The notes under the pieces are model-generated. The model was not told the DNA's origin and did no database searches. It saw nothing but the letters and a program-made list of their open reading frames with translations. Below are positions 608 through 56,125 of a stretch of 64,000 nucleotides of DNA, piece by piece (position 1 is the first letter of the stretch; every line of letters starts with the position of its first letter). Origin of the DNA: Caldilineaceae bacterium (GTDB taxonomy: Bacteria > Chloroflexota > Anaerolineae > Caldilineales > Caldilineaceae); assembly GCA_022827195.1 (NCBI GenBank), contig JAJDTL010000030.1:124001-188000 (forward strand), read 5' to 3'. The position numbers and the translations under genes are program-made.

Positions 608-1363
608 AGGAGAGCTCCAATCGTATGATACGAATGCGTTGTGTGAAGAATCTGGACTTTCACAAGGCGGTGCAGAGATTGTCTTCCATCGCGCCTGTTT
701 GCGCAAAACTCGGTCGAGCAAGCGAGAGTAGCCCTCTGACACTAGAGCGATCTGGCCCGCTAAGCGCGACTGCTTCCCCTATGCCACCAGGTGTCTCTGC
801 CCAACAATCGCGCCGGCGCAACGGACATGACTCCAGGTCACCCCTTCTCTCATCATCCACGGTCCATAGAGGGACCCTTGGCAGAAGCGAACACCTACAT
901 CGAGAACTGACAAAAAAGTGAAATTGCCTGCAAGAGCCGCCAGCACGAGCTATACTTGGACCGGGACCGGCTCGACCAACACCATCACCGGCAGGAATGA
1001 AAACCCGACAGGCAGCACATCGCCCAAACCCCGGCAACGACAGCCCGGCCCTCATTCACCAATCAGGGCCAAAAAGACCGACAAATGACCAAAAATAGCC
1101 AAAAACGACAAAAAGAGACGAAAAACCCGGCAAATGGCCTTCAAATGTGCTACGCTGGTATCAACATCTACAGCCGACCGAGTCAATGAGTGACGAGAAA
1201 CTGAAAACCAATGACAAAGTACACGAAGCCCTGACAGGAACCACCCGGACACCGTGCACCCGCCACCAATAGACGGCCGCGCTTACCGCCTCCAAACACA
1301 GGAAAAATGAAGCTGACCCGACCTGACCAGACTTCACCGGACCTGACCGGACGCAACGCGCCC

Positions 1364-1393
1364 CTTCGTGTGAATTCGTGTCCTTCGTGGATC
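1364..1393. repeat. TTCGTG-type dispersed repeat, copy 1
   Basis: Three TTCGTG units lie within 30 bases, ending in TCCTTCGTGGATC. A near-identical arrangement is at 54240-54269 and a diverged one (TTCGCG units) at 55717-55746. All three copies lie in the two gene-free islands, none between ordinary genes. I recall similar TTCGTG-rich intergenic repeats in other environmental bacteria, but this is memory, not a search result. Confidence 0.6.
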
Positions 1394-1661
1394 GCTAGGC
1401 TGTCGCCAGCGCCATCTGTCAGGAAACTTGCCTACCGGGCAATGCCAATGCGAACAAGTGACTTAGCCGGTACACGAAAAACTGGAAACGAAAAATCCGC
1501 AACAAATTGGCGTTGTTGACATTTCCAGTGAACGGTCGGCAAAAGTCGTCATCGACAGGTTTCCTGCGTACAGTTCCAGCACCGGTTCCCCTGAATCTCG
1601 TAGCGAAGACCCTTGCCTGAGCTGGTGCAGTGAACTATGTCAACTGTAAGAATCAGATCAA

Positions 1662-1702
1662 TCAGACGAATCAGAGTTCAGACAATTGTCAACCAGTCCT
1701 GG
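1662..1702 (+). repeat. 40-bp dispersed repeat, copy A
   Basis: Diverged member of a four-copy family with the core AGTTCAGACAAnTGTCAAC. Copies B (2380), C (53683) and D (55616) share the core, a leading TCAGA and a trailing CTAG or CTGG. Copy A begins TCAGACGAATC and ends AGTCCTGG. It sits just upstream of the ~480-bp element. Confidence 0.7.
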
Positions 1703-1704
1703 AA

Positions 1705-2190
1705 GGAAATTCGCGCCCGAACCATCCCCAATCTGCCCGGGAGTCCTCGCGCCGGCCGCGCCCTCACCAACCAGTTTTCCCAAAAAATCCTGGGGGAGCC
1801 CCGACTATGCGCTACATTGGTCCTTACAACCGCCATTCGCGCCCCCGGCCCCGCCGCGACTTGACACTTTGCGACCAATGAAGACAGTCTGCCCATCCTA
1901 CCAATGTCCCCCAACCATGCCGAGCGCACCGCCGCACTCCCTGCCCAGCCTTGCCGCATCCGTCCACTGTCCGCATTTCACAAAGGACCGTCTTTTCGTA
2001 CGTCTCAGATCGTCTCAGATCGTCTCAGATCGTCTGGGATCGACTCAGATCGTCTGGGATCGTCCGAGCACGCCGCTGTCCACCGCCCGGCATTCCCGCA
2101 GAAATGCCGAGATATTCGCCCGATTCCGCCCGCCAGACCGGCAAAAAAAGCGCGTCAAAACGCGTCATTTCGCGCCGATACGCGGCAAAA
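1705..2190 (+). repeat. ~480-bp dispersed non-coding element, copy 1
   Basis: This stretch aligns by eye with 54326-54790 in the same orientation. The match is patchy at first (AAATCCTG..GAGCCCC, ATGCGCTACA), then strong from TTGCGACC through CCGCATTTCACAAAG and CATTCCCGCAGAA to CGATTCCGCCCGCCA. It contains the decamer array at 2001-2070. The two copies differ by exactly one 10-bp unit inside the array, which would shift any reading frame, so the element is read as non-coding. Function is unknown. Candidates are a protein-binding or structural element, a non-coding RNA, or a non-autonomous mobile element. Confidence 0.72.
2001..2070 (+). repeat. 10-bp iteron array (CGTCTCAGAT), copy 1
   Basis: Six full decamers and a partial seventh follow without gaps: CGTCTCAGAT three times, CGTCTGGGAT, CGACTCAGAT, CGTCTGGGAT, then CGTCCGAGCA. 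Most junctions create GATCGTC, so GATC recurs every ten bases, about one helical turn, on one face of the helix. No spacers separate the units, so it is not a CRISPR array. The partner array is at 54611-54670. Confidence 0.85.
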
Positions 2191-2379
2191 TACACCCGCA
2201 AACGCCCTGAGAAAAAAGTTTCTTCGCGACTGATAGGAGACATTGACATTTCCAACTGCTGGTCAACAAATGTCGCCATCTACAGCATTCCTGCGTTCAA
2301 CTCTGACTTTGTTCCGCCAAATTCTTGGCGCGAAGACAGCCGCGCGGGACGCAGCCTTCAACTGTTTCCATTACAAGAA

Positions 2380-2419
2380 TCAGATGAGCTGAGTTCAGAC
2401 AAATGTCAACGAGCACTAG
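2380..2419 (+). repeat. 40-bp dispersed repeat, copy B
   Basis: Reads TCAGATGAGCTG, then GTTCAGACAAATGTCAAC, then GAGCACTAG. It matches copy D almost base for base over the central 18 nt. An AAGAATCAGA run precedes both copies A and B. A tandem 13-mer begins immediately after it. Confidence 0.75.
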
Positions 2420-2471
2420 AAATCAAACACTGAAATCAAACACTGAAAACTCAAAACTGAAAACTCAAAAC
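2420..2471 (+). repeat. Short tandem repeats (13-mer and 14-mer)
   Basis: AAATCAAACACTG occurs twice in tandem, followed directly by AAAACTCAAAACTG once in full and once in part. The tract is A-rich, abuts copy B of the 40-bp repeat and has no coding signal. Confidence 0.8.
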
Positions 2472-2508
2472 CAACACGACATCCCCCTCCCGAAAGAAAA
2501 AAAACCGC

Positions 2509-2538
2509 GACATTTGGGGACATTTGGGGACTTATGTC
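2509..2538 (+). repeat. Phased GACATT motif, copy 1
   Basis: Three 10-bp units in a row: GACATTTGGG, GACATTTGGG, GACTTATGTC. The same design occurs at 54945-54984 (four units) and 55159-55188 (three units), always ending in GACYTATGTC. An A-rich run (AAAGAAAAAAAACC) lies just upstream, comparable with AAGAAACCTTTTTCGG before the 54945 copy. It may be a binding site, but the function is unknown. Confidence 0.65.
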
Positions 2539-3035
2539 GCACTTTCACGCCAAAGCGAGAGGGCCGCGGCCCCGCAAGACAAAGGCCTCAAACGACCGCT
2601 ATGTCAATTTCGCACACGCAGAAAACGGAGCCGACAACCAGGAGAACCAGGATGGACGCGGCGGGTTGCGAGAATCGAAACTTTACCACTAAAAGGGGAA
2701 GTAGCCAAAGAGGGTCTCAATTTCTCACCATCGCGTCTGCCCCCGAATTGGATGGTCCGACCCTCCGCCACGGCGCCTTGGTCGTTAAAGCGTCTACCAA
2801 AATGCACGCTAGAACCGTAGTCCCAAGAGATTTGCGAGTCACCTCGAGGCTGCTATAGAGTTCACGCGCTGCTTTCGACCGCATGATGATTGAAAGACCG
2901 ACAGTATGCACGGCCAAATGAATTCTTCAAGGTGCAGGCAGTCTGCCTTTCCCGGGTCCGCCCAGTTGAAAGGCGAGCAGACAGAACCCGAACCTCCGCA
3001 GGCTTGAATCCGTTACTTTTCACCTGGAGTTATGT

Positions 3036-6574: not shown

Positions 6575-7801
6575 ATGATAGATCTGACCCGGACTTGGCC
6601 GCAAATGAGCGGACCGGCAATGCCATCAGGACCCGAAATGCCCATCTCCCAGTCGTCCCCGGCAACCGCGCGGACGGTAGCATCAGGCAATGGACGGAGC
6701 CCGCGCCACCAGGAGGCTGCCCTGGACAGGCCCGCCAAGCAGCATCCACCTTCGCTCCATCGCGTTATCGACTGCGACATCCACAATGAGGTGTCGTCGA
6801 TAAAAGACCTGATACCCTATCTGGCCGACTACTGGCGCGATTACATAAGCAATTCGGCCTTCACCGGCCCGGGTGCCAACGATTATCCTCCCGGCGCGCC
6901 TACCTCGGCCAGACCGGGCAGCGTCCCGCGCGGCGGGCGGACTGCAGGTTCCGGTTTGCAGCTTGTCCAGGAGCAGGCTCTCGCCCCTTTAGACACGGAG
7001 ATAGGTATCCTCAACTGTACCTACCGCGTGCAAAGCATCAAGCAGGAAGACCTGGCTGTGGACCTGGCAACCGCGGCCAACCGTTGGCAGATCGACGAGT
7101 GGCTGACGCCGGAGCCGCGCCTGCGCGGCTCGCTGGTCGTGCCCAGCCAGACGCCCGCGCGCGCGGCAGATGAGATCCAGCGCTTCGGCGAACACCCGCA
7201 GTTTGTTCAAGTTATTCTGCCCGTGCGTTCCTACATTCCCTACGGCAGCCGATTCTACGATCCCCTATACGCCGCCGCGGTCGAGCGCGACCTCGTCGTC
7301 GGCATCCACTTTGGCGGCGCGCCCGGCCATCCGCCGACGCCAGTGGGATGGCCCTCTACCTATCTCGAAGAACACGCCGGCATGGCGCAGGTCTTTCAAT
7401 CGCAGGTCATCAGCATCATCGCTGAGGGCGTCTTTGACCGCTTTCCCGACCTGCGCATGGCCCTGATTGAGGGCGGCTTCATCTGGATGCCCTCGCTGAT
7501 GTGGCGCCTGGACAAGGAGTGGAAGGGGCTGCGTTCCAATACGCCCTGGGTTAGACGCCCGCCGTCGGACTACATCCGCGACCATTTCCGCTTGACTGTT
7601 CAACCGGTAGGCGCGCCGCCGGAGCCGCGCTATATCCTCCAGACGATCGAGCAGATGGAGTCGGAAACGATGCTGATGTTCGCCACCGACTACCCGCACT
7701 GGCACTACGATGACGACGATGAGGCTTGGCCCGTGGCGCTGCCCGAACCGCTCAACGGCAACATCTGGTCCGAAAACGCCCGCGCCTTCTATCGACTTTG
7801 A
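6575..7801 (+). CDS. Amidohydrolase-2 family metal enzyme, paralog 1
   Basis: A TIM-barrel member of the amidohydrolase-2 group, which includes ACMSD, 5-carboxyvanillate and resorcylate decarboxylases. Likely metal ligands are CDIHN (D68, H70), GIHFGG and FATDYPHW. The family mostly hydrolyses or decarboxylates; the substrate here is unknown. The first ~60 residues are Pro/Ser-rich and unlike paralogs 2 and 3, and the ATG at 6575 has a poor ribosome site, so the true start may be a later ATG (6605, 6620 or 6641). Paralog 2 begins 11 bases downstream with a good ribosome site, so the two are probably co-transcribed. Confidence 0.85.
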   Translation: MIDLTRTWPQMSGPAMPSGPEMPISQSSPATARTVASGNGRSPRHQEAALDRPAKQHPPSLHRVIDCDIHNEVSSIKDLIPYLADYWRDYISNSAFTGPGANDYPPGAPTSARPGSVPRGGRTAGSGLQLVQEQALAPLDTEIGILNCTYRVQSIKQEDLAVDLATAANRWQIDEWLTPEPRLRGSLVVPSQTPARAADEIQRFGEHPQFVQVILPVRSYIPYGSRFYDPLYAAAVERDLVVGIHFGGAPGHPPTPVGWPSTYLEEHAGMAQVFQSQVISIIAEGVFDRFPDLRMALIEGGFIWMPSLMWRLDKEWKGLRSNTPWVRRPPSDYIRDHFRLTVQPVGAPPEPRYILQTIEQMESETMLMFATDYPHWHYDDDDEAWPVALPEPLNGNIWSENARAFYRL

Positions 7802-7812
7802 GGAGACCCCAC

Positions 7813-8928
7813 ATGACGCTGGGACTGGAATTAGGTGAAAGGCCGGCAGCCGTCGTAAAGACCCGACTGGCGGTGATCGACACCGACATTCACAATTTCG
7901 ACGTCTACGACGATCCTATCTTCGACCAGATCTTTCTGAACTATCTGGCGCCCGAATGGGTGGACCATCACAAGATGATCGGCTTGCGCGGCCATTACGG
8001 CGGCACTTACCCGCGCGCCCAACCCAACGCCGCCCGCACAGACTCTTGGCCCCCTAGCGGCCGCCCGCCGGGCACCGACCTGAATTTCATGCGCGAGCAG
8101 CTGCTCGACGCCTGGGACATGGACTACGGGATCCTGAACCCTCTTGCGGGTGTCGGTAGCCAGGTAAACAGGGAGTACGGGGCTCAGTTGGCACGCGCCA
8201 TCAACGACTACCAAATCGCCGAGTGGCTGGAGCACGAGCCGCGCCTGCGTGCCTCGATGGTCGTCAACTACGAGGACGCCGAGCTCGCGGCCGAGGAGAT
8301 TCACCGCCTGGGCGATCACGACGGCTTCGTACAGGTCCTGCTGATAACCCGGACAGAGGAACCGCTCGGGCGGCGCAAGTATTGGAAGATGTACGAAGCC
8401 GCCCTCGAGTACGACCTGCCTGTCGGCATCCATTTCGGCGGCGGTGGCAGCCACCCGCTGACCGCCGGCGGATGGCCCTCCTACTACATCGAGGACCATT
8501 GCGGCATGCCGCAGGCGTTCCAGGCACAGGTCGCCAGCCTCGTCTGCGAGGGCGTTTTCGAGCACTTTCCCGAGTTGCGGGTGGCCATCATCGAAGGCGG
8601 CTTCGCTTGGTTCCCCTCGCTCGCCTGGCGCCTGGACCAGAGTTGGCAACGTCTGCGCGCCGAGGTTCCCTATCTCAAAAGGGCGCCGTCCGAGTACATG
8701 CAGGAGCACTTCTGGCTGTCCACGCAGCCAATGGAGGAACCACGCCATCAGCGCCATTTTGAACAGCTGCTGGAACAGATGGACGGCGGCAGCCACCTCA
8801 TGTTCGCCACCGACTATCCGCACTGGGACTTTGACTCCCCCGACCGCGCCCTGCCGGCGACGCTCCCGTTCGAGACCAGGCGAAACATCATGGCCGAGAA
8901 CGCCCGCGCCTTCTACAAGCTACCCTAA
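7813..8928 (+). CDS. Amidohydrolase-2 family metal enzyme, paralog 2
   Basis: A 371-residue paralog of the gene before it. Shared landmarks are DTDIHNFD (D25, H27), LPVGIHFGGGG, an IEGGF strand and FATDYPHWDFD near the end. The spacing of motifs matches a divalent-metal TIM barrel. The start at 7813 is fixed by AGGAG seven bases upstream. The closest relative in the window appears to be paralog 1: both share the NARAFY ending, the WPS-Y segment after GIHFGG and the EGGF--PSL-WRLD block. A recent duplication followed by substrate divergence is the likely history, which is inference. Confidence 0.87.
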   Translation: MTLGLELGERPAAVVKTRLAVIDTDIHNFDVYDDPIFDQIFLNYLAPEWVDHHKMIGLRGHYGGTYPRAQPNAARTDSWPPSGRPPGTDLNFMREQLLDAWDMDYGILNPLAGVGSQVNREYGAQLARAINDYQIAEWLEHEPRLRASMVVNYEDAELAAEEIHRLGDHDGFVQVLLITRTEEPLGRRKYWKMYEAALEYDLPVGIHFGGGGSHPLTAGGWPSYYIEDHCGMPQAFQAQVASLVCEGVFEHFPELRVAIIEGGFAWFPSLAWRLDQSWQRLRAEVPYLKRAPSEYMQEHFWLSTQPMEEPRHQRHFEQLLEQMDGGSHLMFATDYPHWDFDSPDRALPATLPFETRRNIMAENARAFYKLP

Positions 8929-52956: not shown

Positions 52957-53763
52957 GGAGCTCTCCTGCCAGTGGTAAAACGGGTTGGGGACTACGGGGT
53001 CGCTCAGCGCGGCGCCTCGACGACGGCGGCACTCGCCCTCAGCCGAAGTGTAGCATATGCCTAATGTGGGCAAAAGCCAGGGCGTGCAGGCACAATCCAA
53101 AACTGAAGTACAGATTGGTATACCCCGGGCTACGCCCCCCTCAGTTCCTGGGCACTGGCCACTGACCACTGCCGTTTAGGCGGTAAGGCCCTACCGGCTC
53201 TCCCTTGCGCGGAGGAACTCCCCCCACAACGCCACCCTGGTTGTACCACCGCACGTGCGCGATTTCCGCCTGTCGTCGACGCCTCGCGCGCCGCCGCCGC
53301 CGTGCGGGAGCGATTCCAGCTTGCCTCCGACCCCGCGTGGACCGTGCCACCGTATGAACGCCTCTCAAACCGGTCGCGCGTTCAACCGGCGACCCCATCC
53401 CTGAGGTTCCTTGAACCTGCCCATCGGCCCTCCTAAAGGCCAGCAAACAGATTCCGCCACCGTTGGCATGAAACCGCCGCCAGACGATTCCAACCGTCTA
53501 GGGTGGGCTGCACGCAAAGAGTCAAGCTTCTATTCCATCCGCACTCCCCAATGTACTGCTTGTCAAGAGTGATATTCCGCTATGGACTACACGCGGCGTC
53601 CGACATTCAAGGGGGACTCGCCCCTTCCGGCTCTGAAGACCGGCGCATGAGCCCGTGCCGTCGGTTCTGTCCATCCCAGAAGTCAGACGAACTGTAGTTC
53701 AGACAACAATCAACGAGCCTAGTCCGTAGCAGTCCGTCTATCTGCCCACCTGGAGGCCAAACA
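52957..53763. other. Intergenic region, left part of island II
   Basis: About 800 bases without a gene. Around 53139-53173 there is a short CACTGGCCACTGACCACTG run, a low-complexity repeat. A minus-strand frame (53141-53446) is Arg-rich and does not look like a known protein. Copy C of the 40-bp repeat (53683-53722) lies at its right end, directly before the Cache-like gene. Promoters of the enolase operon should lie near 52960-53060. Confidence 0.55.
53683..53722 (+). repeat. 40-bp dispersed repeat, copy C
   Basis: Reads TCAGACGAACTGTAGTTC, then AGACAACAATCAACGAGCCTAG. It contains the inverted repeat GAACT-GT-AGTTC also present in copy D. It lies 41 bases before the Cache-like gene. Confidence 0.75.
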
Positions 53764-54312
53764 GTGCGCCGCCTCCCAACACTTTCCCTCGCCCTCTTGC
53801 CCCCACTCGCAATTCTCATGTCTTCCTGTAACCCCATTCCGACCAACAAGCAGCCAGTTGCCTACGCCCAGTCACTGGTGAAGGACGCGATCCCCTTCTA
53901 CAACGAGAACGGACGCGCAGCAGCCGTCGAATGCTTCAGCTCGCTCGACCAGGTAGTTGGACTAGGGTACGTCATTATCCTCGACGAAAACAACGTCTAC
54001 CTTGAGACCTCTTCCGTCCAACTCATCGGCAGAGACCTCTCAAGGCTCGAGGTCGTCAACGGGATCAGATCCAGCGAACACATCGCGAGCATCAGGACAA
54101 CAAACAAGTGGTTCAGCAACGTCTTCCCGAACCCCGAAACGAACGAAAAGCAAACGAGACTCGTCTGGTTCGTCCGCCGCGACGGGCTGGTATTCACCTC
54201 CGGTTCCTACGGGTTAGGGAAGCACTGCAAACCGTTTTCTTCGTGCAAGTTCGTGTCCCTTCGTGGATCAATCCAAGCGATTGAGAGAATCGAAACTCTT
54301 GGATTCATCTAA
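53764..54312 (+). CDS. Small Cache-like lipoprotein, possibly truncated
   Basis: A 182-residue exported protein. A signal sequence with lipobox LMSSC (Cys22) opens it. Residues 35-155 resemble a single Cache sensor domain: YNENGRAAAVECFSSLDQV, VVGLGYVIILDENN, IGRDLSRLE, WFSNVFPNPET and WFVRRDGLVFTSGSYG are pieces typical of Cache sensors that normally sit before a transmembrane helix and a cyclase or chemotaxis domain. None follows here. The last ~20 residues run into the TTCGTG repeat (54240-54269), suggesting truncation of a larger receptor and a new stop. The GTG start has GGAGG seven bases upstream. Confidence 0.6.
   Translation: MRRLPTLSLALLPPLAILMSSCNPIPTNKQPVAYAQSLVKDAIPFYNENGRAAAVECFSSLDQVVGLGYVIILDENNVYLETSSVQLIGRDLSRLEVVNGIRSSEHIASIRTTNKWFSNVFPNPETNEKQTRLVWFVRRDGLVFTSGSYGLGKHCKPFSSCKFVSLRGSIQAIERIETLGFI
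54240..54269 (+). repeat. TTCGTG-type dispersed repeat, copy 2
   Basis: Reads TTCGTGCAAG, then TTCGTGTCCCTTCGTGGATC. It closely matches 1364-1393 apart from one base inserted in the CCC run. It lies inside the 3' end of the Cache-like frame, so the end of that gene appears to be built from this repeat. Confidence 0.7.
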
Positions 54313-54325
54313 GAAGCAGACTAGC

Positions 54326-54790
54326 GGGAAAAGCGCACCCAAACGGTCCCAAACGCGCCTGCCGGTTCCGCCCCTTCCACCTGATCTTTCCGAAAATCCT
54401 GCAAGAGCCCCGGAAATGCGCTACACTGTTCCCTACAACCTTCATTCACGTCCGCGGCCCCTGCGCAACTCGACACTTTGCGACCCTTGAAAACCGTCTG
54501 CCCATCCTACTTACATCCTCCCAACCATGCCCGGCGCACCGCCGCGCCTCCTGCCAAGTCATGCCGCATCCGTCTACTGTCCGCATTTCACAAAGAACCG
54601 CTTTTTCGTACGTCTCAGATCGTCCCGGATCGTCCCGGATCGTCTGAGATCGTCTGAGATCGCCCGAGCGCACCGCCGCCCACCGCCCGCCATTCCCGCA
54701 GAATTGCCGCAATGTTCGCGCGATTCCGCCCGCCAAACCGGCTAAAAGCGCGCCACTCCGCGTCATTTCGCGTCATAATACGTCCCGACG
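54326..54790 (+). repeat. ~480-bp dispersed non-coding element, copy 2
   Basis: Direct counterpart of 1705-2190, in the same orientation. The best match is from GACACTTTGCGACC through CTGCCCATCCTAC, CCAACCATGCC and CCGCATTTCACAAAG to CATTCCCGCAGAA and CGATTCCGCCCGCCA. Spacing between the conserved blocks either side of the decamer array is exactly ten bases shorter here (52,610 versus 52,600 offset), one array unit. That rules out a conserved reading frame through the array. Confidence 0.72.
54611..54670 (+). repeat. 10-bp iteron array, copy 2
   Basis: Five decamers plus a partial one: CGTCTCAGAT, CGTCCCGGAT twice, CGTCTGAGAT twice, then CGCCCGAGCG. Compared with copy 1, several units vary in their middle bases, while the GATCG junction between units is kept. 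Conservation of the 10-bp period despite these substitutions suggests selection on spacing or on that junction. Confidence 0.85.
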
Positions 54791-54944
54791 CGCCCAGGAC
54801 AAGAGACAGCGCCCGAGCTGCCCCGACCAGACCGGAATTCAACCAACCTGAAACGACCGAATAGGCACGCAGACAGATATATAATGGCCATCAACGACCA
54901 CCAGGAGCGCCGCGACATCCGTGACAAGAAACCTTTTTCGGGGT

Positions 54945-54984
54945 GACATTGGACGACATTGGACGACATTGGGGGACCTATGTC
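54945..54984 (+). repeat. Phased GACATT motif, copy 2
   Basis: Four 10-bp units: GACATTGGAC, GACATTGGAC, GACATTGGGG, GACCTATGTC. The last half-palindrome GACYTATGTC is shared with the other copies. AAGAAACCTTTTTCGG lies just upstream. Confidence 0.65.
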
Positions 54985-55158
54985 CCCCTCGCGCGCCCAG
55001 CACCGCCCGGAAACGCACTGCCGGCCGCGCCCCGCAAATTTACGCCCGGCTCCGAACCTCTTCACGCGACCGAACATGCACGCAAACAGGCAAAAAATGG
55101 CGAACAACGACCACCACAAAGGGACCGTGCATCCGCGAGAAAAGACCTTTTATCGGTC

Positions 55159-55188
55159 GATATTAGCCGACTTTGGTCGACTTATGTC
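55159..55188 (+). repeat. Phased GACATT motif, copy 3
   Basis: Three 10-bp units: GATATTAGCC, GACTTTGGTC, GACTTATGTC. It is preceded by AAAAGACCTTTTATCGG, comparable with the leader of copy 2. The last unit matches 2529-2538 exactly. Confidence 0.6.
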
Positions 55189-55615
55189 GACCCAAACCCC
55201 CTGTACGCGGGCACAACGCAATGCGCGGCGACTCTCGTACCCGCCGCACACACCGGAACAGTACGATGCCCCCTGAAATGACTTTGGACCGCGCCGCCTC
55301 AGTCCCCCCGCGGCCGCAGAAGCCCCCCGTCCGCTACCTTCGCCCGAAACGCAAACGCCCAGCCGCCCTGGTTCGAACCGCGCCTGATTTTCTGCTTCAG
55401 CGCCACAACGTTCGCACCCGCCCGCAGCCGTACCGGCGCCGCCGCGCCCGGGACGCATCCTGGCTGCCCAGCTCGAACACCGCGCCGTTCACCCGCAGCA
55501 GCAGTGCATCGTCCCACCCCACCTGCATCGTCGCCTCCGTCTGGTCCCGAACCTCCAGTACACAGCGCGCCACCCCCGCGCGAGCCGTAGACGTTTACTG
55601 TGACCATCACACGAA

Positions 55616-55656
55616 TCAGATGAACTGTAGTTCAGACAAATGTCAACAATCCCTAG
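55616..55656 (+). repeat. 40-bp dispersed repeat, copy D
   Basis: Reads TCAGATGAACTGTAGTTC, then AGACAAATGTCAACAATCCCTAG. It has the inverted repeat GAACT-GT-AGTTC and the exact 18-nt core GTTCAGACAAATGTCAAC shared with copy B. It bounds island II on its right side, as copy C does on the left. Confidence 0.78.
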
Positions 55657-55716
55657 TTGTCGATGTTAGCCCAGAATCCTGAACACAAAGAGCACCTCCA
55701 ATTGCAGCCAGAAACG

Positions 55717-55746
55717 ATTCATTCGCGTCCATTCGCGTTAATCGGT
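55717..55746 (+). repeat. TTCGCG-type dispersed repeat, copy 3 (diverged)
   Basis: Contains CATTCGCGTCCATTCGCGTT, then AATCGGTG, a diverged version of the TTCGTG repeats at 1364 and 54240 (TTCGCG for TTCGTG). It lies 61 bases after copy D of the 40-bp repeat. Confidence 0.5.
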
Positions 55747-56125
55747 GTCCTCCTGGGCTCGTTGAGCAGTTGCAAGCCCCAAGACCAGGCCGCCTGGCGG
55801 CCACAAAACGCCAATCCCAAAAAGGGGCTCTGTAGCTGAGGGAATCGTGAGCATCCCACCTACACGGGCGTCTTCGCACAAAAGCTGCCCGGCAGTTGCC
55901 CGCGCCGAATTGTCACCTTCCCCACTTTTGACTGTGCGCTTCTGTGGTACAATGCCCGTATCCTCCCGGCCTGCATCGATCCGTTCAGCGCGGGCGCCTG
56001 CCGGCGCGCTGTGTCCGTGGAGCTTGTTCCTAGGTCCGTCTCATGGTGCGACGGCTGCAAGCTGCCGGTGAGAGCGTTGGCACGGCCGGGAGAAGAATCC
56101 TGCTGTAACACGAGTCGGAAACAAA

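Follow-up and report, generated by a model that had tools for sequence, protein, structure and literature searches.

We found that two matching, iteron-bearing blocks in the genome of a Caldilineaceae bacterium (Chloroflexota) are best read as modules of dispersed non-coding elements, which would have multiplied as non-autonomous copies from a pac-like terS–terL control region; we assign this reading a probability of roughly 0.55. The elements form a non-coding family with 10-bp arrays, strand-specific promoter-like units, a bias in orientation relative to the downstream gene and a remnant of the start of terS, and in several genomes the same repeat unit lies both before terS and in dispersed positions. 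That TerS binds the arrays, that the promoter-like units are active and how the elements spread is what we infer from these sequence features. The stretch of DNA analysed, hereafter the window, spans 64 kb (C54:124001-188000) of a 5.2-Mb assembly, and the source genome is labelled G000; among named organisms, the nearest relatives of the window's Lon protein include Caldilineaceae.

Repeat arrays within larger non-coding elements

The initial annotation described two matching blocks with GATC-containing decamer arrays of six and five full units. Both arrays are present (Table 1): the first reads CGTCTCAGAT three times, then CGTCTGGGAT, CGACTCAGAT and CGTCTGGGAT, and the second reads CGTCTCAGAT, then CGTCCCGGAT twice and CGTCTGAGAT twice. 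In 200 shuffles of each array region, lag-10 identity reached at most 19 for block 1 and 20 for block 2. Consistent with the reported match, BLASTN aligned 1784-2174 with 54393-54772 at 81% identity, and the offset between the copies is 52,610 before the array and 52,600 after it, a difference of one 10-bp unit. The two blocks are not the pair that they were taken for, because the block occurs in G000 in seven near-complete copies as well as in fragments; the same seven copies rule out a simple two-copy duplication.

The block is a real feature, but it makes up only the central part of a larger element, in which four more 10-bp arrays lie. The view of a non-coding iteron element with repeats once per helical turn is supported and extended. 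Element 1 is delimited by imperfect, weak inverted end motifs of ~34 bp, and window 826-2606 and C54:8045-9703 contain the same modules, arranged alike. A lag-10 scan found five arrays in element 1 and four in element 2, some of the weaker of which score 20-21/30, at or just over the best shuffle; across the whole 64-kb window, lag-10 matches of at least 22/30 occur solely inside these two elements. The CCGGACCTGA-type array of element 1 resembles the CCCGACTTNN unit found before terS of two related genomes (G014 and G001), and the GACATTTGGG array of the R1 module has a period of 10 bp.

Table 1 Features of the two elements and their surroundings (window positions)
Feature	Position	Strand	Basis
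Reported block 1	1705..2190	+	Seven near-complete copies in genome; alignment
Reported block 2	54326..54790	+	Read directly; BLASTN to block 1
Element 1, ~1.95 kb, non-coding, weakly conserved inverted end motifs	760..2704	+	End motifs by profile; module order as at C54:8045-9703; lag-10 scan arrays at 1079-1126, 1308-1361, 1988-2075, 2145-2191 and 2500-2551
Promoter-like unit GCAA-N17-TATACT	930..956	+	Read directly; unit type strand-specific in family
10-bp array of phased A-tracts	1079..1126	+	Lag-10 match 21/30
Promoter-like unit GCAA-N17-TACGCT	1130..1156	+	Read directly; family unit type
10-bp array, CCGGACCTGA type	1308..1361	+	Lag-10 match 24/30
~175-bp separate repeat with GTTGACATTT inverted ends, left copy	1521..1696	+	Alignments; independent copies elsewhere
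10-bp GATC array, 6 units	2001..2060	+	Lag-10 match 28/30
10-bp array, CGCGTCAAAA type, behind A-tract	2145..2191	+	Lag-10 match 21/30
~175-bp separate repeat, right copy	2239..2413	+	Alignments
R1 module: A-tract, GACATTTGGG array, near-palindrome	2484..2590	+	Covariance model match E 4e-28, this copy being itself a member of the model
Decayed terS start, by position	2601..2660	+	Alignment with other copies
Element 2 and surroundings	54211..55879	+	Missing from orthologous G012 interval; lag-10 scan arrays at 54599-54689, 54745-54789, 54932-54991 and 55150-55196
Promoter-like unit GCAA-N17-TACACT	54401..54427	+	Read directly
10-bp GATC array, 5 units	54611..54660	+	Lag-10 match 27/30
10-bp array, CGCGTCATTT type	54745..54789	+	Lag-10 match 20/30, equal to best shuffle
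R1-type module with GACATTGGAC array	54919..55026	+	Model match E 5e-13; lag-10 match 24/30
Second, diverged R1-type module	55133..55192	+	Model match E 2e-4; lag-10 match 21/30

Other repeats were seen alongside these. The ~175-bp repeat also flanks the core as a repeat–core–repeat unit outside the larger element on three contigs (C43, C29 and C25), as though moved as a composite. Another intergenic repeat, rich in GGGGCGTTGCGGGGGGAGTCCCCCC, lies at window 53150-53390, C54:60302-62288 and C54:199055-199292, with several contig copies, and two similar ~700-bp tandem stretches at window 7088-7791 and 8212-8915 are apparently a gene duplication.

A protein-coding repeat was ruled out. Among eight block copies, variable sites show no preference for a codon phase (59/67/55), and every frame is broken by indels of 1, 2, 7, 10, 17 and 20 bp, in agreement with the earlier statement that no reading frame is conserved. 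A structured RNA leader or riboswitch was likewise rejected: Rfam gave no match in the element, its sole match in the window being a tRNA elsewhere, the covariation term of the core was unfavourable, and base pairs of the R1 module varied no better than those of shuffled controls. Conserved RNA structure, for which the initial annotation had suggested a test, thus found no support.

Distribution and orientation of the family

The dispersed elements are non-coding and 1-2 kb long, with R1 as their conserved 3′ module. The R1 model matched 32 copies in G000, 39 in G012, 8 in G015, 6 in G010 and fewer in five other genomes. Searching the reported block itself by BLAST among 40 relatives gave matches only in G014 (84%) and G012 (partial). 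Absence from related genomes, which the initial annotation had named as a ground for rejecting its reading, does not apply: the family occurs in congeners, with a patchy distribution within the genus.

The family has expanded in lineage-specific bursts. In a tree of copies, 24 G012 copies form one recent burst, and older G000 and G012 copies are intermixed. In the recent copies the ends are sharp and lie ~782 bp upstream and ~349 bp downstream of the point where R1 begins, and ~20 of these copies showed no consistent target-site duplication. One site is empty in G012: element 2 is absent from its lipoprotein–Lon interval, where homology ends at 54211 and restarts at 55880. Approximately eleven element sites lie at genes orthologous between G000 and G012, and the element sequences there are mostly not sisters, a pattern suggesting that old sites were used repeatedly or converted. 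Near element 2, the C terminus of a lipoprotein-like ORF (53764-54312) is replaced, relative to G012, by element-derived sequence. An unrelated 10-bp array of the CGCTCGTAAA type (lag-10 24/30) lies ~834 bp upstream of the Lon match in G005 (L292).

The gene downstream of the element is co-oriented with it in 73 of 76 loci and the upstream gene in 44 of 65, where half would be expected downstream by symmetry; genes were called with a crude, home-made codon-usage caller and some loci are orthologous between genomes, and the downstream bias far exceeds both caller errors and locus orthology. The pattern GCAA-N17-TAYNCT, picked after the copies were seen and counted in related, non-independent copies, has 86 occurrences on the element's own strand and 0 on the opposite strand (0.3-0.5 per genome set in shuffles), and its spacer is 17 in every unit, with 16-18 permitted. 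Given this post hoc choice, the relatedness of the copies, the 0 matches of a strict sigma70 scan in element 1 and a −35 of the TTGCAA/GAGCAA type, these data are no more than suggestive of promoter activity. Eight neighbouring genes that were tested, seven of them downstream of G000 elements, had no common function.

A stand-alone terS–terL locus preceded by iterons

Two copies in G000, at C54:224.8k and C14:1.1k, continue directly into a terS-like reading frame. At the C54 locus, terS (C54:224208-224741) is followed by a gene for TerL, which has the domains Terminase_6N and Terminase_3; at C14, terS is truncated. TerL homologues were found in 9 of 17 genus genomes and in 0 of 29 other family members searched, and nine genus genomes have an intact stand-alone terS, mostly then terL. 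TerS was assigned chiefly by its position before terL, and it had no match in Pfam and PDB. In G012, no terL was found despite the 39 copies, so copies persist without terL. Reading-frame and domain checks revealed no evident portal or capsid gene near terS–terL, and the neighbours are metabolic. IMG/VR phage contigs encode TerL proteins that are 54-58% identical, several of them followed by a portal-like ORF, so the terS–terL pair probably came from a phage. In those contigs, no 10-bp array was found in the 900 bp preceding terL. Just upstream of terS in three genomes (L167:9157-10335, L168:4491-5729 and L170:9140-10318) lies a gene with an IrrE-like Peptidase_M78 domain, the domain having been tested in L167; its product could be a linked regulator. 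G000 has a second TerS-like gene, at C10:251683-252090, which no iteron array precedes.

Upstream of most of the 11 stand-alone terS loci in the nine genomes, there is an A-tract and, after it, a run of short direct repeats. The repeat is GACATTTGGG, three times, in G000, which is the unit of the R1 module; a GTCGACTTGG-type unit, four to five times, at one locus each in G010, G011 and G015; CCCGACTTNN, five to six times, in G014 and G001; and CCGACTTNNN, three times, in G006. Lag-10 matches reached 24-29/30 at six of the 11 loci, a score equalled in 0 of 1000 shuffles (p<0.001), and 19/30 at the G006 locus (p=0.003). The second terS loci of G010 and G011 have ~20-bp repeats with lag-20 scores of 24-25/30, and in G005 (9-bp) and G012 the repeats upstream of terS are irregular. 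No such array (≤15/30) was present upstream of six TerS-like genes that are more distant.

The units found before terS recur away from it. Four-unit matches to GTCGACYTNN number 21 in G010, 21 in G015 and 15 in G011, all three of which have this unit ahead of terS; there are none in the 14 other genomes and none in the reversed control. The reported GATC unit was not found before any terS, and its link to terS runs through the shared element. Common descent alone can explain the shared units, without co-evolution with TerS.

Most native terS loci have direct repeats at the terS start, and the dispersed copies retain a terS remnant. After R1, a decayed TerS start can be read in dispersed elements, as at L140 (SDSHARKPWVQQPEEPG versus the TerS consensus TDKTAPKPWEQQPDEPP), and partial terS copies lie upstream of intact terS in several loci. 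The TerS-start peptide scored above 95% of shuffles at 14 of the 27 loci in G000 and at 10 of the 32 in G012, counts that include the terS loci C54, C14 and L235; for element 1, the TerS-start signal of the stretch 2601-2660 alone was not significant.

Alternative explanations

The elements could be large MITEs, selfish non-autonomous repeats of an ordinary kind that a transposase moves. Such a repeat would once have captured the terS control region, and its iterons and promoters would be passengers or transposase sites that today serve no terminase. This account is possible, if doubtful. The sharp ends and recent burst, the inverted end motifs, the smaller repeats nested within and the 39 G012 copies with no terL found all speak for it; however, recent copies share no consistent target duplication, arrays precede intact terS in several genomes, and co-orientation with the next gene in 73 of 76 loci is not predicted for a neutral MITE. 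That orientation bias, the promoter-like units and the approximately eleven sites common to orthologous genes of two species would instead suit a family of regulatory leaders, in which the elements are upstream regions of a gene set, the iterons bind a host regulator and terS is one member gene. We consider such a family quite improbable, as the downstream genes have no common function, the terS start itself belongs to the dispersed element, and the distribution is patchy in the genus with recent bursts.

The initial annotation had pictured a two-copy, origin- or partition-like design. What it described is instead an internal module of a genus-restricted, mobile-like repeat family linked to terS–terL. 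Direct repeats of 10 bp with GATC and nearby A-tracts do recall replication origins, partition sites or nucleoid-organising sites, but a role of this kind is extremely unlikely because the elements lie at dozens of varied sites and are strongly co-oriented with the next gene; their patchiness in the genus and their terS remnant also argue against it.

Discussion

We favour the reading that the elements derive from a pac-like terS–terL control region. In the intact operon, this region comprises sigma70-like promoter units, an A-tract, the iteron array and the start of terS. The native regions share the layout of SPP1 pac, and the iterons are therefore proposed to be bound, on one face of the DNA, by TerS or by a linked regulator acting on its own operon; the native site may be pac-like and autoregulatory, as is SPP1 pac. 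Dispersed copies would have kept the promoters and arrays, lost terS after ~20 codons and spread non-autonomously by transposition or gene conversion, and they would persist ahead of co-oriented genes, probably supplying or modulating transcription there. If copies were added in tandem one after another, this could account for the several iteron types within one element, and the partial terS upstream of intact terS fits such a process. It is also conceivable, though we think it unlikely, that a stand-alone TerS–TerL pair, once domesticated from phage, acts on its own dispersed iterons, by binding, by cutting or by marking DNA for transfer or recombination, and so spreads its sites; if so, iteron type and TerS specificity would co-evolve between species.

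These findings connect an intergenic repeat that had lacked an explanation with a pair of proteins that can be identified. They also provide a testable system: a single genus has several iteron types, and a number of these match the array before terS. If TerS binds the iterons, a protein that recognises packaging sites would here be at work outside phages, and the genus would offer a natural series for studying how a TerS ring reads direct repeats. If it does not, the family would still be a mobile-like element that places promoter-like units before dozens of genes. A search of the literature on Caldilineaceae intergenic repeats or stand-alone terminases found nothing relevant.

Several known systems invite comparison. 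Like MITEs and other non-autonomous repeats, the elements are multi-copy and non-coding, with lineage-specific bursts, and at their ends are similar, though weak and imperfect, inverted motifs; unlike MITEs, they are 1-2 kb long, lack a consistent target duplication and are strictly oriented to the downstream gene. The iteron regions of plasmid origins and partition sites resemble them in their tandem direct repeats near the helical pitch, but the elements have no tied rep or par gene, are dispersed and are gene-oriented. In known phages, TerS forms a ring that displays several HTH motifs. SPP1 and SF6 are phages of Bacillus. The pac site of SPP1 takes in direct repeats, promoters and the first part of terS, and the isolated DNA-binding domain of SF6 TerS shows little repeat specificity (PMC4737164). 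Unlike SPP1/SF6 pac, the region in the genus studied here shows no phage particle genes beside terS–terL, its repeats form 10-bp arrays accompanied by an A-tract, and truncated copies of it occur dispersed in the genome; what the two have in common is that direct repeats, promoters and the terS start are gathered in one region before terS.
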